Below, one piece after another: positions 2,874-17,544 of a stretch of 23,788 nt of DNA. The position numbers and the translations under genes are program-made. How positions within the stretch are numbered: the first letter of the stretch is position 1; each line of letters opens with the position of its first letter. This stretch comes from a virus: the IMG/VR virus record IMGVR_UViG_3300006845_000039, positions 1-23,788 of that record, one strand, 5' to 3'. The notes under the pieces were generated by a model, which worked only from the letters and a program-made list of their open reading frames with translations, had not been told where the DNA came from and ran no database searches.

Positions 2874-4058
2874 ATGGGGCTGGGGCGGCTCGTGGCGGGC
2901 GAGCAGATGCGCTCGACGCAGATCAGCGTGAAGGACACCATCACGAACGCGACCGCCACCTACTTCATCACGGACAACCTCGGCCCGACCTGGGCGACCT
3001 CGTCGGCGTACCGCGGTGCGATGCAGATCCCCGGCGCGTGGCGGGCCGCCACGTTCCGGTCGGGTGTGCTGGGCATGCTGCCGTGGCACGGCTACCGCAA
3101 GCTGCCACGCCAGCCGGAGGAGCTGATCGTTCCGACGCCGCCTCTGTTGGAGCAGCCCAACCCGCCCGACACCCGGCTGACGACGTTCGCGTCTACGGCG
3201 TTGGACTTCATCTGGCACGGCAACGGGATCTGGGTGGTCGCGGCCCGGGATCGGACGGGTTGGCCGACGGCGGTGGTGCCGGTGCCTGCGGTGTCGGTGG
3301 GGGTGCGCCGGATCACCGAGTATGCCGATTCGCCGTTGCCGGTGGGGGCGTTGGAGTATGCGATCGGCCGGTTGCGTCTGGGTTCCCGCGATGTGATCCA
3401 TTTCAAGCGTCCGGGTGAGCCGGGGGCGGTGCGTGGCATGGGTGTGCTTGAGGCGCATCTGTCCACGTTGAACCTGGCGCAGGAACAGTCCAAGCAGGCT
3501 CAGTCCATCAGCCGCCATGGTGTGCCGACGGGTGTGTTGACGACCACGAACCCGGACGCGTCGAAGCAGGACATGATCGATGCGAAGGCGTCGTGGCTTG
3601 AGTCGCAGGCGACTCGGACGATCGCGGCGCTCGGCCCGACGGTGCAGTTCCAGCCGTTGTCGTGGAACCCCGAACAGCTGCAGATGGTGGAGGCGCGCAA
3701 GTTCACCCTGACCGAACTGGAGCTCATCTTCGAGCTGCCGGTCGGCTGGCTGGGCGGCACCACCAGCTCGCGCACCTACGCCAACATTGAGCAGGATGTC
3801 GCGAACCTGATGAAGTTCCCCGGGCCCGGTGCTGATGTGGCCCAGTTCGAGCAGACCCTGACGTTGGCGTTGCCGCCGGCGGTGTGTGCCCGCGCGAACC
3901 TGGACGCCCTGTTGAAGTCGGACACGCTCACCCGCTATCAGGCGTACCAGATTGCGTTGGGTGGCAAGCCTTTCCTGTCGGTGGATGAGGTGCGTGAGGA
4001 TGAGCACCGGGCGCCGATGCCTGTCGTCGACGGCGGGTTTGAGGGCGGCTACGAATGA
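2874..4058 (+). CDS. Portal protein, HK97 family
   Basis: The portal forms the dodecameric ring at one head vertex through which DNA enters and to which the tail connects. The 394-residue sequence matches the HK97-type portal pattern: early TVFRS/GVLGMLP-like segment (AATFRSGVLGMLPWHGYRK, residues about 60-78), a middle part with IWHGNGIWVVAARD and VIHFKRPG, then GMGVLEAH, GVPTGVLTT and the late FELPVGWLGGTTSSRTYANIEQ region. The length is at the short end of the family. It begins directly after the previous stop codon and overlaps the next gene by ATGA. Position after the terminase and before the protease agrees with the assignment. Confidence 0.9.
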   Translation: MGLGRLVAGEQMRSTQISVKDTITNATATYFITDNLGPTWATSSAYRGAMQIPGAWRAATFRSGVLGMLPWHGYRKLPRQPEELIVPTPPLLEQPNPPDTRLTTFASTALDFIWHGNGIWVVAARDRTGWPTAVVPVPAVSVGVRRITEYADSPLPVGALEYAIGRLRLGSRDVIHFKRPGEPGAVRGMGVLEAHLSTLNLAQEQSKQAQSISRHGVPTGVLTTTNPDASKQDMIDAKASWLESQATRTIAALGPTVQFQPLSWNPEQLQMVEARKFTLTELELIFELPVGWLGGTTSSRTYANIEQDVANLMKFPGPGADVAQFEQTLTLALPPAVCARANLDALLKSDTLTRYQAYQIALGGKPFLSVDEVREDEHRAPMPVVDGGFEGGYE

Positions 4059-6910
4059 AGACGTTGGCCAGCCTGGACTATGACGAGCTGCACGCGCGGG
4101 CGGTGGCGGCGTCGCGGCTGCCCGCCCTCGACGATGACGACGGCGGCGACTATGCCGGGCTGGATGTGGTTGAGGATCAGACCCGCTCCGGGTATGGCGA
4201 TGTCGCGGTGACGTCGGATGCGTGGCTGCGGGACCGGGCCAACGCGGTCTTGCGCGGCTTGCCGGATCTGCCCCGGCCGTTGCTGGAGCCGCTGCTGCTG
4301 CTCGACGCGGACGACTTGGCGTTCGTGCTCAAGGTTGCGCTCGATGAGCTTGCCCCGCACACGCGGACGTTCAACCCGGAGGCACACAAGCGTTGGCCGA
4401 AGGGGCATCCGCTCGCCGGGAAGTTCCGGCCAATGATCGAGTTGTTGAAGCTGGCCATCACCCAGTTCGATCCGAAGAAGGACAAGAACCCGTTTGACCA
4501 GTTCAAACGGCCGCAGTTGTTGAAGGCTGCCCGGGATCTGGGCATCAAGCTGGACCGGGGCGAGGGCGAGGACTCGATCGCGGCGAAGCTGCTGGCGCAC
4601 CTCAACCCAAATGCCAAGCCCGCGCCTGTTGCGAAGAAGGCTGCCCCGGTGAAGAAGGTGGCCGCAGCGGCTGTGCCGAACGATGGCCTCGACGCGCTCG
4701 ACGCGCATCGGCTCAGGAGCTTGGCGCTCGAGTACGACGTCATTCCCGCCGGCCGGGACACCAACAAAACTCGCGACGAGATCGTTGACGAGTTGCGTGC
4801 GTTGGGTGCGCTGGCCCCGGACGTCAGGTTCCGGCGCAACGATGAACGCAAGGATCTGCTGGAGCGGCTGAAGAACTTGGGCCGCCGCGAGCCGGCCGAT
4901 GCCGGGCCGCTGGAGCGTGCGGTGATAGCACTGGCTGAAGACGTGGACCGGAAGACGGTTGCGAAGCAGCTGCGTAAAGAGGCGGATTCGGTTGGCCGCA
5001 AGGAGGATGCGGACACGCTGCGGTTCCTGGCGTCGGATTTGGCGCGGAAGAAGGCGGAGCCTCCGCCGTACCTCAACGACAGGGGTCGCATTGACCTGGT
5101 CAAACTCGCGGAGCATCACGGCGTTGATATCCGAAAGTGGATGCCGTTGGACAAGCCGCCGAAGCAGGGCATGCCGATGCTCCAGTACCGGGCCGACAAC
5201 CCGTTCGACACCCAGTTCCGGAGCTTCGCTGAGAACCTGGGCAACCCGGGGCGGCCTATGTCGCGAGCAACGGCGATCCGTGAGGCCCGAGCTGGCGCGC
5301 GGTTCGAGCGAGATCAGTATGACGATGCGGTTGCTGGGCGGGGTATTTGGAGTTATCCCGGCCGGGCTGACGAACGCAAGGATTTGATCGCCCGTGGCCT
5401 TGAGGTGGCGTCGGTCCTTGAGCAACTGGCGGATCTGGTCGAGGCGGCGAAGGTGCCGGCGGCAAAGCGTGCGCCTACCTTGGGAGCGACGTCGCTGGGG
5501 GAGATCGTGCCGGTTGACGAGACACGGTTCAAGCCGCGGCACATTAAGGAGGCTCTCTCCCACCGCGGTGAGCGAATCCCCGATGGCTTCGCGCACCGTG
5601 GCAGCGGCACCGAACTGGTCCGAAACCCTCACGCACCCAAACGGCCGGGGCTCAACGATGCCGAGAACCGCGCCTTGGACCTGTGGACGCTCGGCGTCGT
5701 GGCGGACGGGCTCAACGGGTCGCTTCGCCGGGGCCGCAACGTCCACGGGGAGATCAAAGGCCCGACCGGGAAGATCGACCTGGATGAGACTCTGCGCTAT
5801 GTCCGGGGCGCCATCGCCGACAGCCGCCTGACGCAGGACACCGAACTGTGGCGTGGAGCGCTGGTGAGCAAGGCCGACTTCCGCCGGCTCGTACCCGGCG
5901 CCCTGTACACCGACCTCGGGCTGCTGGCCACGTCGACGGAGGAGATGGGTGCCCGGCACACCATCGCCTGGCGGCAAAGCAACGGATCAGTCCCGTCGGG
6001 TAGGGTGCCGGTGCTGTTCAAGATTCTCGCCCCGGCCGGCACGAACGCGGCGCTCGGTCACGAGCGGGTGAAGGAAGTGCTCCTGCCGGACGGGCAGGAG
6101 CTACGCGTGGTCCGTGTCGATGAGAGTGTGTCGCCACCGGTCGCGGTGATGGAGGTCGTTCCTCCCCTGCGGGAGCCGGGGGTGGTGCGTGGACGGTCAA
6201 TCGTCGACGACTTCGACTACGACAGCGCAACCCAGGGGCCAAGCGGTTCCCACTTCAGTAAAGGCGTGCCCGATTCCTGGCTCGGTACGATCCAGCAGGC
6301 GCAAGGCTTTGACGGCAAGCCGAAAGTCGTCACGCGCCAGGAGATGGATGAGACCGTCAGGGGCGGCGCTACTCAGGTGTTCCGCGCGGTCAGGCAAACA
6401 GACGGTGGCAAGACACCGGCCGAGCTTGCCGAGCAGTACCGCAGCGGTCCGCTTTACCCGGGCACCGGGGTTTACGGCAACGGGACGTACGCCACGCCGC
6501 AGCGCGAGGTTGCGATCAAGTATGGCGACGAGAAGACCATGCTGCGTATGGCTTTGCGCCGCGACGCCAGGGTGATCTCTATCGAGGATCTGAACAAGCT
6601 GCGGTCCCGTACCGGTATCACCGCCACCGCATCGAAGATGGCCGACGAGCGTCAGGCAGAGTTGAACAGGGTCGACCCGAAGGACACCGCCGCGATCAAG
6701 GCGATCACGGACAAGTATGAGAAGTTGGCCGAGCGGCAGGGTTCCCGTAGCCGGATCGCGCAGGACCTCGGGCGGGTGGCGGCGCTGCTGGGCTACGACG
6801 CCATCTACGTGCCAAGCGACTACCGTGGACCTGCGTCGAAGAACGATTACCAAACCGAGTATGTGATCCTGAATCGGACCGCCACCATTGTTGAGGAACC
6901 GCAACTATGA
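4055..6910 (+). CDS. Large head-region protein with two ADP-ribosyltransferase-like domains
   Basis: This 951-residue protein overlaps the portal by ATGA, the position of MuF-like minor head proteins that can be packaged with the DNA. Residues 1-135 are an acidic N-terminus ending in a KRWPKGHPLAGKF motif. Residues 148-183 and 213-252 look like two SAP or Rho-N type helix-loop-helix modules joined by a Lys/Ala linker. A first ADP-ribosyltransferase-like domain spans about 575-705: ELWRG (Arg600), ATSTEE (Ser627) and KEVLLP (Glu674), matching the R-S-E plan of exotoxin-type enzymes. A second, different one spans about 760-945: VFRAV (Arg777), YGNGTY (807-812), AIKYG and QTEYVIL (Glu935), resembling the PARP-type G-x-G-x-Y and E-Y-[IV] motifs. 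I did not see a clear MuF core. It may be injected with the genome to modify host proteins (inference). Catalytic activity is unproven. Confidence 0.7.
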   Translation: MKTLASLDYDELHARAVAASRLPALDDDDGGDYAGLDVVEDQTRSGYGDVAVTSDAWLRDRANAVLRGLPDLPRPLLEPLLLLDADDLAFVLKVALDELAPHTRTFNPEAHKRWPKGHPLAGKFRPMIELLKLAITQFDPKKDKNPFDQFKRPQLLKAARDLGIKLDRGEGEDSIAAKLLAHLNPNAKPAPVAKKAAPVKKVAAAAVPNDGLDALDAHRLRSLALEYDVIPAGRDTNKTRDEIVDELRALGALAPDVRFRRNDERKDLLERLKNLGRREPADAGPLERAVIALAEDVDRKTVAKQLRKEADSVGRKEDADTLRFLASDLARKKAEPPPYLNDRGRIDLVKLAEHHGVDIRKWMPLDKPPKQGMPMLQYRADNPFDTQFRSFAENLGNPGRPMSRATAIREARAGARFERDQYDDAVAGRGIWSYPGRADERKDLIARGLEVASVLEQLADLVEAAKVPAAKRAPTLGATSLGEIVPVDETRFKPRHIKEALSHRGERIPDGFAHRGSGTELVRNPHAPKRPGLNDAENRALDLWTLGVVADGLNGSLRRGRNVHGEIKGPTGKIDLDETLRYVRGAIADSRLTQDTELWRGALVSKADFRRLVPGALYTDLGLLATSTEEMGARHTIAWRQSNGSVPSGRVPVLFKILAPAGTNAALGHERVKEVLLPDGQELRVVRVDESVSPPVAVMEVVPPLREPGVVRGRSIVDDFDYDSATQGPSGSHFSKGVPDSWLGTIQQAQGFDGKPKVVTRQEMDETVRGGATQVFRAVRQTDGGKTPAELAEQYRSGPLYPGTGVYGNGTYATPQREVAIKYGDEKTMLRMALRRDARVISIEDLNKLRSRTGITATASKMADERQAELNRVDPKDTAAIKAITDKYEKLAERQGSRSRIAQDLGRVAALLGYDAIYVPSDYRGPASKNDYQTEYVILNRTATIVEEPQL

Positions 6911-7215: not shown

Positions 7216-7473
7216 ATGGCGACCAAAGACGACACCACCAAGGCGGCCCCGGGCAAGGCGGCAACACCCGCCAAGCCGGCCGAACCAGCCGTCACACCGA
7301 AGGGCCCGGCCAAGGCTGCGGCCGAACCCAAGGACGAGCAGGAGGCGAAGCCGGAGCGGGTCAGCACCTGCGTCGTGAACGACGGCCAAGGCATGCACGT
7401 CGGTGACGCGGTCAACGGCATGGTGTGCTCCTACCACGCCATGCACTACGACGCCCACGGGAACCGGCGATGA
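7216..7473 (+). CDS. Small Lys/Ala/Pro-rich phage protein with a conserved-looking C-terminus
   Basis: An 85-residue protein preceded by a clear GGGAGGAAGG ribosome binding site. Residues 1-48 are low-complexity Ala, Pro, Lys and Thr, likely disordered. The C-terminus (about 50-85) is ordered in appearance: STCVVNDGQGMHVGDAVNGM then CSYHAMHYDAHGNRR, with two Cys and three His that could bind a metal. I do not recognise a named family. It overlaps the prohead protease by ATGA, suggesting a head-assembly role. Confidence 0.65.
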   Translation: MATKDDTTKAAPGKAATPAKPAEPAVTPKGPAKAAAEPKDEQEAKPERVSTCVVNDGQGMHVGDAVNGMVCSYHAMHYDAHGNRR

Positions 7474-8099
7474 CCACCGAAACCCACTTTCGTAGCTACC
7501 GGCCCGACCTCGAGGTCAAGCGTGAGGGCGATGGTCGCACCGTCGTCGGGATAGCCGTGCCCTACAACGCGCCCACCCGCATCCACGACCACCTCGTCGA
7601 GGAGTTCGTCCGCAACGCGTTCGACGCCCAGATCAACGCGCCGCAGCGGGTCAAGTATGCGCGTGAGCACGTCAAGCTCGGCGGCATCCTCATCGGCGCC
7701 CTGTCGCACATGCGTGACGACGCGGCCGGCCTGTATGTGGAGATGCGGGTTTCCCGCACCCCCACCGGCGACGAGACGCTGGAGTTGGTCAAGGACGGTG
7801 CCCTGCCCGACTTGTCGATCTGGTTTGAGGAGCGCACCAACCGCCGCGCCCCCGGTGGGGTGGTGCAGCGGGTGAAAGCGCACCTGCGTGAGGTGGCATC
7901 GGTGTTGGAGGGCGCCTACGGGGATCTGGCCACGGCGACCGGGGTGAGGTCTGCGGCTGCGTTCGCCGAGCCGATGGTCATTGACGACCTGGAGATGGAT
8001 CTGCGCCGCAAGGCGGAGCAGTTTCTGTCTGGCCTCCCGGATCCGGTGGACCACGAGTTGGAGATGCGGCAGCTGCGTCTGGGCATGCCGATCCGATGA
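7470..8099 (+). CDS. HK97-type prohead maturation protease
   Basis: A 209-residue serine protease of the HK97 prohead type, which acts inside the immature head and trims head proteins before DNA packaging. The expected pattern is present: GIAVPYNAPTRI near the N-terminus, YAREHVKLGGILIGAL with the likely catalytic His67, DDAAGLYVEMRVSRTPTGDE, and ALPDLSIWFE with the likely nucleophile Ser116. The ATG at 7470 overlaps the previous stop as ATGA; an upstream ATG at 7425 would run back through the previous gene and lacks support. It lies between portal and capsid genes, as in HK97-like phages. Confidence 0.9.
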   Translation: MTTETHFRSYRPDLEVKREGDGRTVVGIAVPYNAPTRIHDHLVEEFVRNAFDAQINAPQRVKYAREHVKLGGILIGALSHMRDDAAGLYVEMRVSRTPTGDETLELVKDGALPDLSIWFEERTNRRAPGGVVQRVKAHLREVASVLEGAYGDLATATGVRSAAAFAEPMVIDDLEMDLRRKAEQFLSGLPDPVDHELEMRQLRLGMPIR

Positions 8100-9057: not shown

Positions 9058-9241
9058 TACCGTGTGAAACGACCTTAACGCTGGACACCGACACCCCGGC
9101 CTCTTGGCAGGATCGCGAGCACCCCGGCCTACGTCATCGGCGCCATCTAAGGCGCGCGCGCCGGCTTCCTCGTCCTGGGACGCCGACACCCCGGTCACTC
9201 GGAGCGACAAAATTCCTTGTGACCCCACGGGAGTGGTTGTC
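9058..9241 (+). promoter_or_regulatory. 184-bp leader of the major capsid gene, with repeats and a possible promoter
   Basis: This gap breaks the otherwise tight gene coupling. It starts with TGATACCGT (9055-9063), which fits an extended -10 (TGnTAnnnT), with no clear -35. GGAC[A/G]CCGACACCCCGG occurs at 9083-9099 and 9178-9194 (16 of 17 identical), and its core ACCCCGGCCT is repeated at 9093-9102 and 9121-9130. A perfect palindrome GGCGCGCGCGCC lies at 9151-9162. The ribosome binding site GGGAG (9229-9233) precedes the GTG start at 9242. A separate promoter or a stabilising mRNA leader for abundant capsid production is the natural reading, but it is an inference. Confidence 0.35.
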
Positions 9242-10636
9242 GTGTCAGCAGAAAACTCCTACCTGGTTGGTCTGCGTTCGCAGTATGACCAACTCAAGAG
9301 ATCCATCGCCGGGCTTCAGTCCCGCGCGTCCGATGCCAAGCGTGACCTGACCACTGAAGAGCTTCGCTCCGTCATCGAGATGGGCGAGAAGGCGCAGGGC
9401 CTGTTCACCCAGATCGAGAGCCTTACCGAGATCGAGTTGCGCAACGCGCAGGTCGACGCGATGGCTGCCAGGGTTGCTGCGGCTACGCGGCCCGGCGGTG
9501 AGGGTGACCCCGGCGGGGAAGGCGACGGCGGGGAAGGCGGGACCGGAGGTGGCACCAGCGACGGCCAGTTCCGCACCCTCGGCGGCACCCGCACCCAAGA
9601 CCGCGACCCCGGCACCTATATCCGCGGCTCCCAGTTCTCCTTCGTCGGCGACCACTACCGGTCGTCGAAGATCGGCGACCGGGACGCCGCCGAACGACTC
9701 ACCCGCCACGCCAACGCACTACGCGACAACCAGCATCTGCGTGACGTTCTCGGCGGCGGCGCCACGACGTTCGGCGCCGGCCTGGTACCGCCGGTGTGGC
9801 TGGCCGAACAGTACGCGCCGATCCTTCACCGCAGGTTGCGTCTTGCGGGCCAGGTCCGGCAGGTCCCTTGGCCCGGCTCGCCGATGCCGTGGTCGATCCC
9901 GATCTCCGGCACCGCCGCCACCGGCACAGTGGTCGCTGAGGGCATCAACCCGGGCGAGACCGACCCGTCGTACACGGTTCTCACGGTCACCCCGAAGACG
10001 ATCTCCGGGTTCTCTGAGGTGTCGCGGCAGATGCTGGAGGCGTCGAACCCGGCTGTTGACGCGCTGATCTGGGAAGACCTGATCGGCAACTTCTTCGACA
10101 ACTGCGAGATCGAGTTCATCACCGCGCTCACCGCCCAGTCCGGTGTCAACACGGTGACGGTTTCGGCGGGCACGGCCACCACGACTGACATTCTCAACCA
10201 GCGTTCCGGCCTGCTCGACGCCATCTCGGCCGTGTCGGACAACAACGCCGGCGATCCGAACATTTTCGCGGGCCGTAACAGCCGCTGGACCACCTATCTG
10301 AAGTTCCAGGACACGGTGGGCCGGCCTTTGATCCTTGCGCAGCAGTACAACCCACAGAATGCGATCGGTCGGGGTGACCTCACCCAGGCGTACGCGACGG
10401 CGGTGCAGGGCAGCCTGGAGAACCTGGCGGCTGTCACCTCGCCGACGATCGCGGCATCGACCGGGTTTGTGGTCAACGGCAACGAGTTGCTGTTCTCCTA
10501 CAGCCCACCCATGCAGTTCCGGTTCGAGGAGCCGGCCGGCCCGGCACTGATCCGCGTCGGTGTGTGGGGATACGAGGCGTCGGTGACCGGCCGTCGGCCG
10601 AAGGCCATCACAAAAATCACCTACTCGGGTAGCTGA
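9242..10636 (+). CDS. Major capsid protein, HK97 fold
   Basis: A 464-residue protein forming the icosahedral shell. Residues about 5-82 are a helical, charged stretch (LRSQYDQLKRSIAGLQSRA...) typical of the delta or scaffolding domain that the prohead protease removes. A Gly/Glu-rich linker at 84-106 would be the cleavage region. The rest follows the HK97 capsid plan: GGATTFGAGLVPPVWLAEQ, PWPGSPMPWSIPISGTAATGTVVAEGINP, TVTPKTISGFSEVSRQMLEAS, and the C-terminal ELLFSYSPPMQFRFEEPAGPALIRVGVWGYEA. The start GTG at 9242 follows GGGAG with 8-nt spacing. An upstream TTG at 9104 would add a Ser/Pro/Arg-rich tail and has no ribosome binding site. The gene stands apart from its neighbours on both sides. 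Confidence 0.93.
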   Translation: MSAENSYLVGLRSQYDQLKRSIAGLQSRASDAKRDLTTEELRSVIEMGEKAQGLFTQIESLTEIELRNAQVDAMAARVAAATRPGGEGDPGGEGDGGEGGTGGGTSDGQFRTLGGTRTQDRDPGTYIRGSQFSFVGDHYRSSKIGDRDAAERLTRHANALRDNQHLRDVLGGGATTFGAGLVPPVWLAEQYAPILHRRLRLAGQVRQVPWPGSPMPWSIPISGTAATGTVVAEGINPGETDPSYTVLTVTPKTISGFSEVSRQMLEASNPAVDALIWEDLIGNFFDNCEIEFITALTAQSGVNTVTVSAGTATTTDILNQRSGLLDAISAVSDNNAGDPNIFAGRNSRWTTYLKFQDTVGRPLILAQQYNPQNAIGRGDLTQAYATAVQGSLENLAAVTSPTIAASTGFVVNGNELLFSYSPPMQFRFEEPAGPALIRVGVWGYEASVTGRRPKAITKITYSGS

Positions 10637-10641
10637 TGTCG

Positions 10642-10700
10642 TCCGTTCCGTCGGCACGGGACCTGGGAGGGAACCCGTGCCGCGGAACGGATTCCCTCCC
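10642..10700 (+). terminator. Strong hairpin with interlocked inverted repeats after the capsid gene
   Basis: The left arm 10642-10660 pairs with the right arm 10674-10691 over 18 bp with a single bulged T. The 13-nt loop contains GGGAGGGAA (10665-10673), which is perfectly complementary to TTCCCTCCC (10692-10700) directly after the stem. The two pairings form an A-B-A'-B' arrangement. With no nucleotides linking the stem to the tail, both cannot form fully together, so they are probably alternative folds. There is no U-run. The position, just after the capsid stop and before the next ribosome binding site (AAAGAAAGG), suggests a partial terminator, mRNA stabiliser or attenuator. Confidence 0.7.
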
Positions 10701-10715
10701 AAAGAAAGGCAACCC

Positions 10716-12107
10716 ATGACGACTGAGACCACCGGCACACCAACGGTTCAGGTCGCCTTCATCTACCGCGACGAGGTCAGCTACTCGTGGCACGAGTCGA
10801 TGTGGGAGATGTTCTCCTACGACCGCGACCACGGCCGGCACCTGCATCAGCGGCGCCTCGCGATCCGCACCCATCCGATCAGGATGGTCCAGTCACGCAA
10901 CCTGGTGGTGAAGGCGTTTCTCGACGACACCGACGCCGAATGGCTGCTGTGGATCGACACCGACATGGGGTGGCGGCCGGACGCCCTGGAGCGGCTGCTT
11001 GCCGCGGCCGACCCGGTGAAGGCGCCGATGGTGGGCGGCCTGTGTTTCGGGCTGTGGCCGACCGGCTACGACGGCATGGGTGGGCTGCGGTTCGATGTCA
11101 GGCCAACGCTTTTCCGGATCGCTACACGAGTCAAGGACGGGGCGCCGGTGTACTCGCCGATGCCGTCCTATCCCGACGACACCGTGGTTGAGGTGCACGC
11201 CACCGGTTCGGCGTTCGTGCTCATCCACCGCACAGTGTTCGAGAAGGTACGTGCCGAGCACGGTGACCGCTGGTACGACCAGATTGTTGACGGCGACGGC
11301 GAGACTATGGGCGAGGACATCTCGTTCTGTCTGCGGGTCGGGGCGCTCGGTCTGCCGATGTTCGTCGACACCGGCACGCCGACAAGTCACCACAAGCAAC
11401 TGTGGCTCGGCGAACAGGACTTCTGGGCCCAGCACGCCGAGCAGCGCATGGCCAACCCCGCACCCGATCTGCCGATCTTCACACATCTGCCTGCGACCTT
11501 CGACGCCCTCGCCCGTAACCGGCATGACCACGACGGGATGCTCAAGTTCCACGCGGACCTGGACCGCTACCTGGCCATCATCTATGCGACCAAGCCCGAG
11601 GTGATTGTCGAGACCGGCACCCGCACAGGGGCGTCAGCGAGGTGGTTCGGCCTCAACAGCGGTGCCGACGTGATCACGGTTGACGTATCTCGGCCAGCCG
11701 ACCTACATGAGGGCGACACGATGACCTTCATGAGCGGCAGGACCATCACCTTCGTCACCGGCGACGCGGCCGACCCGGAGGTTGCCGCGAAGGTGGCCGA
11801 GTTGGTTGCTGGCCGCCGCTGCATGGTGACGCTCGACTCCGACCACTCCGGCCCACACGTCGCCAAGGAAATCGACCTGTACGGGCCGCTCGTCACGCCC
11901 GGCTGCTATCTCGTGGTCGAGGACACGATTTTCGGCTACGGCGAGGACGCCAAGGCGCAGCACGGGATGGCCGATATCGAGGGGTCGCCGCTGGATGCCG
12001 TGCTCTCCCATCTGGTCGGTAACCCCGAATGGTTGCGTGACGTAGCCATCGAGCAGTCGCACCCGATCGGATCGAACCCCGCAGGGTGGTGGATCCGCAA
12101 TGGCTGA
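10716..12107 (+). CDS. Glycosyltransferase fused to a CmcI/rhamnosyl O-methyltransferase-like domain
   Basis: A 463-residue two-domain enzyme. Residues about 10-230 form a GT-A glycosyltransferase: QSRNLVVKAFLDDTDAEWLL, then LWIDTDMG with the DxD metal/nucleotide-sugar motif (Asp81, Asp83), GSAFVLIHR, and GEDISFCLRV, the usual late acidic helix. Residues about 275-463 are a SAM-dependent methyltransferase of the CmcI/rhamnosyl O-methyltransferase type: IVETGTRTGASARW (glycine-rich SAM loop), VITVDVS (acid for ribose), ITFVTGDA, LDSDHSGPHVAKEIDLYGPLV and CYLVVEDTIFG. It probably attaches a sugar and methylates it, or a partner's sugar. The ATG at 10716 follows AAAGAAAGG; an in-frame ATG at 10677 lies within the hairpin. 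It overlaps the next glycosyltransferase by 8 bp. Confidence 0.8.
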   Translation: MTTETTGTPTVQVAFIYRDEVSYSWHESMWEMFSYDRDHGRHLHQRRLAIRTHPIRMVQSRNLVVKAFLDDTDAEWLLWIDTDMGWRPDALERLLAAADPVKAPMVGGLCFGLWPTGYDGMGGLRFDVRPTLFRIATRVKDGAPVYSPMPSYPDDTVVEVHATGSAFVLIHRTVFEKVRAEHGDRWYDQIVDGDGETMGEDISFCLRVGALGLPMFVDTGTPTSHHKQLWLGEQDFWAQHAEQRMANPAPDLPIFTHLPATFDALARNRHDHDGMLKFHADLDRYLAIIYATKPEVIVETGTRTGASARWFGLNSGADVITVDVSRPADLHEGDTMTFMSGRTITFVTGDAADPEVAAKVAELVAGRRCMVTLDSDHSGPHVAKEIDLYGPLVTPGCYLVVEDTIFGYGEDAKAQHGMADIEGSPLDAVLSHLVGNPEWLRDVAIEQSHPIGSNPAGWWIRNG

Positions 12108-12816
12108 CATCATTGTCGTCACTCCCTCTCGTGGTCGTGCGGCGCGGCTGCGGGAGATGGTCGAGGCCGTCCATTCCACCGCGTTGGGTGACGTGCGTGT
12201 GATGGTCGGCCTCGACCTTGACGACCCGGCCGACTACGAGGCGACGATTCCTGAGTGGGTTGGCAACATCTCTTCGTACCGTGGTCCGCGTAAGTCGTTG
12301 TGCGGGTGGACGAACCATCTCGCGCTGCAGGCGCTCGACGGGCCGAACCCGCCCAGGTATTTGGCCTCCCTCGGCGACGACCACCGGCCCCGTACGCACG
12401 GTTGGGACCGCGTCCTCATCGAGGCGATCGAGAACATGGCCGGGCCGGGGTTCGCGTACGGCAACGACCTTTTGCAGGGCAAGGCCATGCCCACTGCGTG
12501 GGTGGTGTCGGCGGAGGTGGTGCGGGCGTTGGGTTGGATGATGCTGCCCGGCTGTGCGCACATGTACGTGGATGCGGCTGTGCTCGCCCTGGGCCAGGCT
12601 GCGGGTCGGATCGCCTACCGCGCGGACGTGATCGTCGAGCATGTGCATCCGTTGGCGGGCAAAGCCTCCTGGGACACCTCCTACCGCGAGTCCAATGCGG
12701 ACGGACGGTATGCGGCTGACCGGGCGGCGTTCGAGGCGTGGCGGGTAGAGCAGCTGGCGGCAGACGTCACGGCCGTGGAGACGCTGGTCTACGAGAGGCA
12801 GGCGAGAGGCGCATGA
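12100..12816 (+). CDS. Glycosyltransferase, GT-A fold
   Basis: A 238-residue protein starting IIVVTPSRGRAARLREMVEAV, a typical GT2-like N-terminus, with SLGDDHRPRTHGWD at about 90-103 supplying the metal-binding acidic motif and YVDAAVLALGQAAGRI at about 156-171 as the usual late helix. It overlaps the preceding glycosyltransferase/methyltransferase by 8 bp and the connector gene by ATGA, so it is made with virion components. It likely adds a sugar to a capsid or tail protein. Acceptor and sugar cannot be read from the sequence. Confidence 0.8.
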   Translation: MADIIVVTPSRGRAARLREMVEAVHSTALGDVRVMVGLDLDDPADYEATIPEWVGNISSYRGPRKSLCGWTNHLALQALDGPNPPRYLASLGDDHRPRTHGWDRVLIEAIENMAGPGFAYGNDLLQGKAMPTAWVVSAEVVRALGWMMLPGCAHMYVDAAVLALGQAAGRIAYRADVIVEHVHPLAGKASWDTSYRESNADGRYAADRAAFEAWRVEQLAADVTAVETLVYERQARGA

Positions 12817-13193
12817 CCACACCAGTTGAAATCGCTTGGCCGCCAACGCTGGCCAACCTCAAGGTGGACATGGGAGTCCAGGCCGACGACCTCCGCAAGG
12901 ACGACCAGCTGACCTACGACCTCAACGCCGCCTTCGCCTTCGTCAAGGACCGCAAGAAAGGCGTCTACCGCTTCGACCTCACCGACCCCGACCAGCTCGA
13001 GCTTCCCGAGCCGGACCACGACTTCCGGCTGGGGATTCTGCGGCTGGCCGCCCGCTGGAACGACCGGCGCCGCACGAAGGACGGCATGGTGCAGATGCAG
13101 GAGTTGGGCATCGGTCGTGTCGCCTCCACGGATCCGGACATTGACCGGATGCTGCGCCTGGGCCGCTTCAACGGTGCGGGGGTGTTCGCGTGA
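12813..13193 (+). CDS. Head-tail connector, gp6-like adaptor
   Basis: A 126-residue, mainly helical, acidic protein. It contains DDQLTYDLNAAFAFVKDRK near the N-terminus and FRLGILRLAARWNDRRRTKDGM near the middle, the pattern of HK97 gp6-like connectors that attach under the portal (GxxxLAaRWyrRRnSpdG in relatives). The C-terminus SIDRMLRLGRFNG-like (PDIDRMLRLGRFNGAGVFA) is also usual. The ATG at 12813 overlaps the upstream stop (ATGA), and the gene ends in a GTGA overlap with the next. Confidence 0.8.
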   Translation: MTTPVEIAWPPTLANLKVDMGVQADDLRKDDQLTYDLNAAFAFVKDRKKGVYRFDLTDPDQLELPEPDHDFRLGILRLAARWNDRRRTKDGMVQMQELGIGRVASTDPDIDRMLRLGRFNGAGVFA

Positions 13194-13564
13194 GCAGCCC
13201 GGTGAAGGAAGCGGCTCAGCAGCTGGTGCTGGCATTCAAGACAGTGCCCGGTGTGGGTGGTTCGGTGTACACGGACCCGTCCGCGCCGAACATTCAATGC
13301 CCGGCAATCGTGCTCGGCCCGCCGACGCTGTTGTTGGAAAGCGGCCGCACCATGCCGACGGAAGCGCATTTCCCTGTCTGGGTGGTGGTCGACGATCCGG
13401 GTGAGCTTGCCATCGAGAAGCTGTGGGAGTTGGCGCCAGCCGTATCTGCGGCAATCGACGAGTACACCACCGGAGTGGTGAACCAACCAGCTACACCATT
13501 CCCGTTCCCGCATGGCGCCACGGATCTGCCGTCGTATCAACTCATCGCGGAGGTGCCTCTCTGA
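13190..13564 (+). CDS. Putative tail terminator or head-tail joining protein
   Basis: A 124-residue protein starting with GTG in a GTGA overlap with the connector. Features are PAIVLGPPTLLLESG, HFPVWVVVDDPGELAIEKLWELAPAVSAAI and a C-terminal SYQLIAEVPL, a small alpha/beta pattern with a central helix. This resembles the tail terminator proteins that cap the tail tube and join it to the head, and the position just before the tail tube gene agrees. A different connector protein cannot be excluded. Confidence 0.65.
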   Translation: MSSPVKEAAQQLVLAFKTVPGVGGSVYTDPSAPNIQCPAIVLGPPTLLLESGRTMPTEAHFPVWVVVDDPGELAIEKLWELAPAVSAAIDEYTTGVVNQPATPFPFPHGATDLPSYQLIAEVPL

Positions 13565-13986
13565 TGACCCAGCCAATCTCCCGCAAGCTCAAAGCTGCCG
13601 TACTCGCCTTGGGCGGCAACGCTTTTCAGTGGCAGCTCAAGGACTACCAGGTTCTGAACAACACAGAGGACGGCGAAAAGTTCTACGTCTACGGCGACGG
13701 CAGTGCCGCCACCGAGTTCTTCGAGGAAGCAGAGCCCAGCTACGCCTTGCAGTTGGTGTTCTTCAGCGACTGGCGTCTCAACGGTGTCTCGGACTACCTG
13801 TGGGACAACGACCAGCTGACCGTCGCCTACCAGATCGATCACCACCCGGAGCTTGCGGGCGAGAAGATCCGCCTGACCGGCACTTTGAAGATCAAGGCAC
13901 CGAACGTGGGTGGCGAGGTGCGCACCACCGAGATGACCGAACTGACGCTGCCGGTGATCGGCAAACCCACCAAGACAAGGTTGTGA
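13564..13986 (+). CDS. Putative major tail tube protein
   Basis: A 140-residue protein whose ATG shares one base with the preceding stop (TGATG). The sequence is beta-rich (FQWQLKDYQVLNNTEDGEKFYVYGDG, YALQLVFFSDWRLNGVSDYLWDNDQLTVAYQID, then IRLTGTLKIKAPNVGGEVRTTEMTELTLPVIGKP), with the late alternating strands and terminal ELTLPVIGKP expected for siphovirus tail tube proteins, which stack as hexameric rings. It sits between the tail terminator and the chaperone. The neighbouring 179-residue protein is the other candidate for tube or decoration. Confidence 0.65.
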   Translation: MTQPISRKLKAAVLALGGNAFQWQLKDYQVLNNTEDGEKFYVYGDGSAATEFFEEAEPSYALQLVFFSDWRLNGVSDYLWDNDQLTVAYQIDHHPELAGEKIRLTGTLKIKAPNVGGEVRTTEMTELTLPVIGKPTKTRL

Positions 13987-14969: not shown

Positions 14970-15464
14970 ATGGCATCGCAGGCGTTGACGGTGCACGTGT
15001 CCACCTCCGGTGTCCGCCAGGTCCTGCGGGCGTTCGCACGGTTGCCGAAGGAGGCCAGCGAACAGATCCGCGACACCAGCCTGCGTCTGGCGCAGGACCT
15101 CGCCGATGATGTCGCCCATGCCGCCAGGGCGCGGGGTGGTCAGGCGGCGTTGATGGCCCCGACGGTGAAGGCGGTGCGGGATCGGGTACCGGCGATCACC
15201 GCGGGCGGCGCCACGCGTGTGGGCCGGCACCATGCTTCGGCGTGGCGGCTGCTGTTCGCGTCCGAGTTCGGGATGAACCGCAGGAGCGGCTGGTATGCGG
15301 CGGCGCAGTACCGGGCATCGACCGGCCGCCAGTATGGCCCGCATCTTGGTGCCCACAGCTACTGGTTTTTCAAGGAGGTCGGGCGGCACGAGGGCGACAT
15401 CGAACGGGCGTGGGGCCGGTCTGCTGACGCGATCGTCCGCTCGTTCAGGCGGGGTGGTGTGTGA
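14970..15464 (+). CDS. HK97 gp10-like neck or tail completion protein
   Basis: A 164-residue basic protein with a helical N-terminal part (GVRQVLRAFARLPKEASEQIRDTSLRLAQDLADDVAHAARARGG) and a C-terminal region with FASEFGMNRRSGWY and GAHSYWFFKEVGRHEGDIERAWGRSADAIVRSF. This matches the general look of HK97 gp10 family neck proteins. The location just before the tape measure and after the chaperone is unusual compared with lambda-like order, where such proteins precede the tail tube. It has a strong ribosome binding site, GGAGGGG, directly before the ATG. Confidence 0.65.
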   Translation: MASQALTVHVSTSGVRQVLRAFARLPKEASEQIRDTSLRLAQDLADDVAHAARARGGQAALMAPTVKAVRDRVPAITAGGATRVGRHHASAWRLLFASEFGMNRRSGWYAAAQYRASTGRQYGPHLGAHSYWFFKEVGRHEGDIERAWGRSADAIVRSFRRGGV

Positions 15465-16873
15465 TGGCCACGGCGACCCGCACGATCAAAGTCAAGTTCG
15501 ACGGTGACGAGAAGGGCCTGATCGCGGCTGCCGCCGCGTCTGGTATCGCTATCGAGCGTTTCGAGAAGCAGGCCAACAAGTCCACGAAGAGCCTGTCCAA
15601 GTCGGGTGGTCTGCTCGGCGACGGGCTGCTTGATGCGCTGGGTGCGCTGCCGTCTCAGTTGAAGGGTGCGGCGATCGTGGCGGGTGCCGGTATCGGGGTG
15701 GCGATGGGGCCTGCCCTGGCGTCTGCGCTGATCGCCTCGGTGCTGCTTGTTGTGGGCGGTGGTGTGCTGGCCGCCGGAATTGTGGGTGCGGCCAAGTCGC
15801 CGAAGGTGGCCAAGGCGTGGCAACGCTTCGCCCGTCAGGGCGCGGTGGTGTTCGAGCGGTTCAGCCAGCCGTTCATCAAACCTTTGGAACGTGCGGCGCG
15901 CACGTTCGGGTTTGCGTTGGCGCGGATGGAGCCGACCATCCGGCGCATCGGCCAGACGATGGCGCCCATCATCGACAAGTTGGCGCCAGGGTTCGCGTCG
16001 ATGCTGGAGAACGCGCTGCCTGGGATCCTGGCGGCAACCGAGGCAGCTTTGCCGCTGTTCCAGATCTTGGCCGACAATCTGCCTGGCATCGGGACTGCCT
16101 TGACCGGTTTCTTTCAGGCGATCGCCGCGGGTGGGCCTGGCGCTGCGGCGTTCTTCTCCGGGTTCCTGGGCTGGGTTCAGAACATCCTGCCCCAGCTTGG
16201 CCGGATCCTTACCTGGGTCCAGGATTTGGGCCCGAAGATCGATGCGTTCAGCGCGAGACTGACTCCACTCAAAGAGGCGCTGGAGTCTGTGGGCCGGTTC
16301 ATCAGCGAGGGCATGGCCAGCGCCCGCGAAATCTTGACCAAGTGGTTCAAGGAAAACGAGGAAAGCCTCAGGGTCTTCGTCATCGAGGCGTCCGGGTTCA
16401 TCAAGGACACCGGCCCCGCATTCAAGCTGATCATCCAGGGGATCGCCATCTCGTTCGCGATGTTCGTGTCCAACGTGGCGCTGCTGGTGCACTGGCTGAA
16501 CCAGCTGAAGAACTGGTGGCACGACAACAAGCACTGGCTGCTCAACTTCAGCCCGTTACTGGGCATGATCTCCAGCCAATCCAAGGGCATCCCTGGTATC
16601 GGCGCCCGAGCCAAGGGCGGCGACGTGTTGCCGCACCGCGACTACCTCGTCGGCGAGGAAGGCCCCGAGATCCTGCGAATGGGATCACGCTCGGGCACTA
16701 TCGTCCCCAACCATGCGATGCCCACCGGAGGCGGTGGCGGCGACATGCCCCCGATCATCATCGAGAACCACATCGAGATCGGCGGCGAGGTCGTCCGCGT
16801 CGTCCGCACCGAGATCAAGGCGTCCAACCGCGCAACGAAACGTGCCGTCCTGGCGGGGGCGTACGCGCTATGA
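15464..16873 (+). CDS. Tail tape measure protein
   Basis: A 469-residue protein that sets tail length and is ejected with the DNA. The N-terminus (TRTIKVKFDGDEKGL) is followed by a helical stretch, a long hydrophobic segment at about 69-110 that can span membranes, and amphipathic helices to about 370. The C-terminus has the widely seen tape measure motif GDVLPHRDYLVGEEGPEILRMG and TIVPN. It is short for the class; at about 1.5 angstroms per residue the tail would be near 70 nm (rule of thumb). The start could be ATG 15464 (TGATG) or the adjacent GTG 15461 (GTGA). Its stop lies 2 nt from the end of a reverse-strand gene. Confidence 0.88.
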   Translation: MATATRTIKVKFDGDEKGLIAAAAASGIAIERFEKQANKSTKSLSKSGGLLGDGLLDALGALPSQLKGAAIVAGAGIGVAMGPALASALIASVLLVVGGGVLAAGIVGAAKSPKVAKAWQRFARQGAVVFERFSQPFIKPLERAARTFGFALARMEPTIRRIGQTMAPIIDKLAPGFASMLENALPGILAATEAALPLFQILADNLPGIGTALTGFFQAIAAGGPGAAAFFSGFLGWVQNILPQLGRILTWVQDLGPKIDAFSARLTPLKEALESVGRFISEGMASAREILTKWFKENEESLRVFVIEASGFIKDTGPAFKLIIQGIAISFAMFVSNVALLVHWLNQLKNWWHDNKHWLLNFSPLLGMISSQSKGIPGIGARAKGGDVLPHRDYLVGEEGPEILRMGSRSGTIVPNHAMPTGGGGGDMPPIIIENHIEIGGEVVRVVRTEIKASNRATKRAVLAGAYAL

Positions 16874-16875
16874 AC

Positions 16876-17544
16876 CTACTCCTCCTTGACCCAGGTGCCG
16901 CAGTTGCTACTGGCGAAGTCGTGCCCGACCTCCAGCGTGACGGACGGACGACCCCCGGCGGGGATATCCGCTGCGAGAACGTCCCGCGCGTTGGTGCCGG
17001 ACTTGTAGATCGCCCAGTAGCAGTTAGCGCCGGGATCGACCGCGGCGGCGACACGGTAGGTTCCCGGCGCGACATCCTTGCCGACAGTCCACATGCCTTC
17101 GGGGATCGAGTTCGAGCCGGCCACGTTGGTGCCAGCCGGGGCTGTGGCTGTCGGGTTTTCCCTGACCCACGTACCGCAATCGTGGCTGTAGAAGTCCTGC
17201 CCCACATTCAGGACAACGGTTGGCCTGCCACCGTCAGGTATGTCGTTGGCGACGATGTCCCTTGTGTTGGAGCCGGTTCTGTAAACCGCCCAGTAGCATC
17301 CGGCATCCGCACGGACCGCGGCGGCGGTCCGGTAGGTGCCCGGTTGTATGTCGTCACCGACGGTCCATGTTCCTTCGGGGATCGTGTCTGGGCCGGGCGT
17401 TTCGGCGGGGGCAGCCCCGCCCGCGATAGGGCCTATGCGGTCGAGGATCCCCGATTCCCGCGCCACCAGCGTGCCGCCCACCAGCGCCACAAAGATCGGG
17501 ACGGAGATCAGAAGCCCCTTCACGGCGGGATTCATCTTGCTCAT
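16876..17544 (-). CDS. Membrane-anchored protein with two repeated disulfide-type domains
   Basis: A 222-residue protein on the strand opposite to the late genes. Residues 7-28 are a single hydrophobic segment (AVKGLLISVPIFVALVGGTLVA) with a short Lys-containing N-terminus, a signal anchor that would place the rest outside the cell. After an Ala/Pro linker there are two homologous units, about 54-129 and 146-221, offset by exactly 92 residues. Each has IPEG.WTVG, PGTYR.AAAV, CYWA.Y and CGTWV, with paired Cys (83/123 and 175/215) likely forming disulfides. I know this domain type from actinobacterial secreted proteins but not its function. The ATG at 17544 has a GGGAG site upstream; 13 upstream codons are excluded. 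Independent orientation suggests a lysogenic conversion or superinfection exclusion gene (inference). Confidence 0.8.
   Translation of the reverse strand: MSKMNPAVKGLLISVPIFVALVGGTLVARESGILDRIGPIAGGAAPAETPGPDTIPEGTWTVGDDIQPGTYRTAAAVRADAGCYWAVYRTGSNTRDIVANDIPDGGRPTVVLNVGQDFYSHDCGTWVRENPTATAPAGTNVAGSNSIPEGMWTVGKDVAPGTYRVAAAVDPGANCYWAIYKSGTNARDVLAADIPAGGRPSVTLEVGHDFASSNCGTWVKEE

Follow-up and report, generated by a model that had tools for sequence, protein, structure and literature searches.

Virion glycosylation is regarded as a rarity among phages, known from a few mycobacteriophages. In Che8, Corndog and Myrna the virion proteins are glycosylated by the phages' own glycosyltransferases (GTs) (PMC12363180; PMC11600133), of which Che8 gp110 and Corndog gp38 are essential (PMC12363180). 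Glycans have been reported on the Che8 capsid (PMC11256854, PMC12363180), tail tube proteins of mycobacteriophages are modified (PMC12363180), and cluster O glycosylation is said to act on both capsid and tail tube (PMC11600133). In STIV, the essential viral GT A197 has been proposed to glycosylate the major capsid protein of that virus (PMC10551542). On domain analysis, Che8 gp108 (L253 6172-7347), which is annotated as a glycosyltransferase only, displays a Glycos_transf_2 domain fused to a TylF/Methyltransf_24 domain and therefore the Che8 glycans may be methylated. Furthermore, Wildflower of cluster O (Corndog type) carries an O-methyltransferase and three GTs within its head operon, and the Actinoplanes phage phiAsp2 has a three-gene GT/methyltransferase cluster, pas33-pas35, in which pas34 joins a GT2-family domain and a Methyltransf_24 domain. 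Given gp108, Wildflower and pas34, the theme of GTs together with an O-methyltransferase is already known in cultured phages. The initial annotation of the DNA analysed here had invoked mycobacteriophage glycosylation as a precedent to which a methyltransferase would be added; the precedent is real and closer than stated, and the methyltransferase is not new, as Che8 gp108 and cluster O already have one.

The window spans an entire IMG/VR virus record (23,788 bases), and its predicted genes are those of a tailed-phage late region: terminase (698-2215), portal (2874-4058), prohead protease (7470-8099), HK97 type major capsid protein (9233-10636, + strand; phrog_2263, Pfam Phage_capsid), head-tail connector (12813-13193, + strand; phrog_5938), major tail protein (13564-13986), tape measure (15464-16873) and tail genes up to about 22 kb. 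Between the capsid gene, which is immediately 5', and the connector gene lies a cassette of two intact ORFs, hereafter GT1-CmcI and GT2. The two overlap by 8 nt, and GT2 overlaps the connector gene by the 4 nt ATGA.

The first ORF (10716-12107, + strand) encodes one protein of 463 residues, whose ATG at 10716 is preceded by AAAGAAAGG; an alternative in-frame GTG is found at 10677. Its first part (10716..11519, about residues 1-268) is a GT-A glycosyltransferase domain and the second (11520..12107, about residues 269-463) a SAM-dependent O-methyltransferase domain of the RMNT_CmcI type. In the ORF 10677/10716-12107, phrog_34859 'glycosyltransferase' matches residues 62-250 (5e-17) and RMNT_CmcI (PF04989) residues 288-474 (104 bits against a cut-off of 23.2, E 1e-29), while Pfam Glycos_transf_2 remained below its cut-off on GT1 (13.4 bits vs 23.3). 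The residues conserved among homologues include, in GT1, the GT-A signature DTD, GED (ED 200-201) and HxK (H225) and, in the second domain, the SAM-binding ETGTRTG and the acidic LDSDHS and VVED. DTD 81-83 corresponds to the DxD metal motif and is invariant in the homologue alignment.

The AlphaFold2 model of the fusion protein has a mean pLDDT of 87 and a pTM of 0.58, hence the relative placement of the two domains is uncertain. The best fold match of the GT1 model is STIV A197 (Z 19.0, 2.4 A, 175/191 residues), followed by the glycosyltransferase domain of human LH3 and Mimivirus R699. A197 is likewise a viral GT-A enzyme, but it belongs to an archaeal virus, shares 15% identity and has no methyltransferase domain. 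For the methyltransferase domain the fold matches are CmcI (Z 15.3 over 159 residues), MycF (15.2), MeT1 (14.7) and MycE (14.6), as well as SpnH. The acidic metal pair E186-D187 of CmcI aligns with E402-D403 of the fusion protein, a pair that is invariant in 24 homologues, and the first metal-site aspartate was assigned by sequence, as a putative ligand, to LDSDHS. CmcI, MeT1 and MycF, which share the Pfam family, the fold and the aligned pair, are however stand-alone enzymes of antibiotic or polysaccharide pathways. The models thus support a putative sugar O-methyltransferase, the rhamnosyl/CmcI-like assignment that the initial annotation had given to this domain, and its description of a GT-A enzyme fused to a CmcI-like methyltransferase is borne out by both family matches and both folds.

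GT2 (12100..12816, + strand) is a second GT-A glycosyltransferase, with GDDHRPR and EHVHP motifs. It matches phrog_14945 'glycosyltransferase' (6e-36) and gave no match to Pfam Glycos_transf_2. The GDDH motif is invariant among homologues, and the model (pLDDT 92) finds by Foldseek sugar-transferring GT-A enzymes such as WrtF. The family match, the fold and the intact ORF agree with the second glycosyltransferase that had been annotated after the fusion gene. In Streptomyces phage Francob (L251 8372-10096) a GT2 homologue is grouped with a further GT and with a nucleotidyltransferase inside the DNA-replication genes, which suggests that the same GT family is put to a different use there.

Phage GT genes accompanied by an O-methyltransferase, as with Che8 gp108 and Wildflower gp33, are thus present in the cassette, and gp108 has the same GT-A plus O-methyltransferase architecture as GT1-CmcI. 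However, its methyltransferase is TylF and not RMNT_CmcI, and the genes for gp108-gp110 are at the right genome end, not adjoining the capsid gene. Within the subset of pairs compared by BLASTP/hhalign, the cassette proteins showed no significant match to Che8 gp108-110; for gp110, neither BLASTP against GT1 (no significant match) nor hhalign against the GT2 profile detected a relation. In Wildflower, the GTs and methyltransferase are between portal and protease, the methyltransferase is separate and TylF-type, and gp36 is a member of the Che8 gp110 family. In phiAsp2 the methyltransferase is on a GT2-family domain instead of GT1, pas35 is Che8 gp110-like and no GT1 match was reported. The type of system is known, and the novelty lies in the families of its enzymes, in its constant position beside the capsid gene and in tailoring genes that can be exchanged.

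The nearest relative, L001 (77% identical), has the same order of capsid, GT1-CmcI and GT2. Between the window and L001, dN and dS are 0.12 and 0.60 for GT1 (dN/dS about 0.2), 0.26 and 0.83 for the CmcI domain (0.31) and 0.17 and 0.77 for the capsid (0.22). Both halves of the fusion protein are under purifying selection, similar to the capsid. Relatives were gathered by enzyme sequence alone, ignoring gene order, and reduced to 209 non-overlapping loci; a single-sequence scan of genome contigs for enzyme relatives gave no match, while an alignment query did. The loci were surveyed with HMMs in six frames, as gene calling alone missed genes on miscalled strands, and GT1 is present at 155 of them. 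Wherever a capsid gene could be recognised, GT1 is downstream of it on the same strand (146/146), although these loci are akin to one another and not independent trials; they do cover several capsid lineages and deep GT1 branches. The distance from capsid to GT1 ranges from 53 to 3146 bp, with a median of 560. Six of the nine GT1 loci without a recognisable capsid begin within 310 bp upstream of GT1, and the only possible exceptions to the linkage are L002, L022 and L218. At least two PHROG families, phrog_2263 and phrog_10, are represented among the capsids next to GT1, together with a type that resembles phrog_10 weakly.

Common descent may account for part of this conserved position. Nevertheless, the order kept in L001, the dN/dS values and the 146/146 loci indicate that the arrangement is not due to chance, and the coupling to structural genes first proposed from the window holds, with overlapping genes, capsid on the 5' side, connector on the 3' side and GT1 behind the capsid throughout. 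The GT2 family is not capsid-linked by itself, since a capsid was found at 3/41 GT2-only loci. Against 50,697 deposited phage records GT1 yielded marginal matches only and so appears almost absent from cultured phages. It also occurs in genomes of actinomycetes, where some copies clearly belong to prophages and are surrounded by head genes; prophages with GT1 next to their capsid gene are carried, for example, by Amycolatopsis pretoriensis (L023), Acrocarpospora (L026) and Nonomuraea (L028). Among cultured phages the closest capsid relative is Cracklewink, which lacks a GT gene between its capsid and adaptor genes. In the window and most relatives of the same capsid type no gene intervenes between capsid and GT1. 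In phages with a phrog_10 capsid, one or two conserved small genes (~80-aa proteins) often stand between capsid and GT1; in L091, L175, L014 and others, one product ends in ...SGDPAVH..LAELGYE and a second has ...HWPADDPVV...VEQATAAPGEKR..., neither with a Pfam match above cut-off.

Where genes were called, the CmcI domain forms part of the GT1 protein at 17 loci and is encoded by a separate nearby gene at 22; a Methyltransf_23 gene takes its place at 18, and 34 showed no gene of this kind. The cassettes also include an NAD-dependent epimerase (one cluster of 25 genes, whose representative has a Pfam match at 1e-37), a TylF O-methyltransferase (2e-23), GT-B and extra GT2-type enzymes. A sulfotransferase considered in L014 fell under the cut-off (18.6 vs 27). 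On the GT1 tree the tailoring type changes at least 32 times, compared with 57 when labels are shuffled. Exchangeable tailoring genes are what a glycan assembly line would be expected to require, and if their products did not act on one glycan, it would be hard to account for the exchange of sugar-tailoring enzymes at a single site beside the capsid.

The cassette probably serves to attach a short, O-methylated glycan to a protein of the virion head, most likely the major capsid protein. The gene context thereby supports well, as a probable reading, the O-methylated particle glycan suggested by the initial annotation. What we observed are the families of the enzymes, their intact catalytic motifs, purifying selection, a gene order locked to the capsid and tailoring swaps; we infer an acceptor protein, a donor sugar, an order of steps and a glycan on the particles as follows. 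GT1 would transfer a sugar from the host nucleotide-sugar pool to the head protein; GT2 would add a second sugar to the product of GT1; and the CmcI-type domain would methylate a sugar hydroxyl using SAM and a divalent metal. The cassette would be translated together with the head genes, and its expression should be late given that GT1 is fixed behind the capsid and overlaps head genes. Glycans of the Che8 type are reportedly located at C-termini (a finding attributed to Freeman, 2023). The capsid C-terminus of the window (...RRPKAITKITYSGS) shows no Ser/Thr-rich tail as a candidate glycan site, which counts against the capsid as acceptor. Two further points weigh against the proposed function: the window contains no nucleotide-sugar genes, and the GT2 family on its own does not go with the capsid.

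Phage GTs that modify host surface sugars are well known. The cassette could act in this way during infection or lysogeny, for receptor masking or superinfection exclusion, leaving the virion unmodified, and the prophage copies of GT1 in actinomycete genomes would suit such a role. We nonetheless regard it as unlikely, since the same gene is fixed behind the capsid and overlaps head genes, neither membrane anchor nor flippase is seen in the cassette, and the search for a promoter-like site from capsid to connector, a weak test, found none. Modification of the host surface is listed among the possible roles of phage GTs (PMC10202952).

It is also rather improbable that the acceptor is a virion protein other than the major capsid protein, such as the connector, the tail tube or a small head protein. 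The modified tail tubes of mycobacteriophages (PMC12363180) and the small genes often found between capsid and GT1 in phrog_10-capsid phages are in line with this possibility; however, the lack of an intervening gene in the window and most relatives of its capsid type means that the ~80-aa protein cannot be a universal acceptor. As the capsid neighbourhood is the sole conserved context, capsid and tail, which the initial annotation had named together, are not separable. Glycosylation of phage DNA bases, as a hypermodification against nucleases, is very improbable. GT2 homologues in Streptomyces phages such as Francob do adjoin genes for a nucleotidyltransferase, a dNMP kinase and replication. 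The window, however, shows no gene for base hydroxymethylation or of TET type, GT1 goes with capsid genes, and the sugar acceptors of its fold neighbours are proteins or glycans. Both the host-surface and the DNA readings are less likely than glycosylation of a head protein. The occurrence of one GT family behind the capsid in every readable case suggests that uncultivated phages of actinomycete type commonly glycosylate their heads and can exchange methyl and other tailoring. GT1 provides a sequence marker for glycosylated phages and points to actinomycete genomes for testing.

The 79 bases between capsid and GT1 (10637..10715, + strand) form a strong hairpin (-41.6 kcal/mol, z -4.0). Its ten loop bases 10664-10673 (TGGGAGGGAA) match, without a mismatch, the complement of 10692-10701 (TTCCCTCCCA), which immediately precede the ribosome-binding site of GT1, an arrangement that resembles an H-type pseudoknot. 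Other copies, in many covarying versions, are found at L045 6089-6181, L134 7620-7703, L157 5818-5893 and others. We compared 46 gaps of 60-130 nt behind capsid genes with 150 other gaps, using 60 shuffles: a pseudoknot-like structure beats all 60 in 30/46 post-capsid gaps and in 24/150 of the others, and the median hairpin z is -3.18 and -0.83, respectively. The matching complement is retained in 28 distinct loop helices, with a mean of 9.4 bp vs 3.9 bp when partners are swapped, but these helices were chosen for complementarity and it is therefore the shuffle test that carries the weight. The element matches no Rfam family, and its stem lengths vary too much for MAFFT alignment. Since it follows both capsid families, the RNA is to be counted with the capsid message and not with the glycosyltransferase genes; that it protects the capsid mRNA or limits downstream translation is a guess. 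A wider reading can be offered tentatively, in which GT1 would be a capsid-dedicated protein GT family, near-absent in cultured phages and common in uncultivated actinomycete-type ones, that builds interchangeable O-methylated or otherwise tailored head glycans, while a covarying pseudoknot RNA following the capsid gene would control how much capsid is made relative to downstream product.

Two further genes of the window were noted. A single minus-strand gene within the tail module (16879-17544) encodes a 222-aa protein in which an IPEGTWTVG-DIQPGTYR-like repeat is duplicated and the N-terminal part includes a hydrophobic stretch; it looks like an extra gene expressed in lysogeny. Beside the portal gene, 4055-6910 encodes a large protein of 951 aa with no Pfam match; at the equivalent position L001 (2771-4309) encodes an ADP-ribosyltransferase domain (6e-11) and a weak 2'-5' RNA ligase domain, and the next gene there is a GNAT acetyltransferase.
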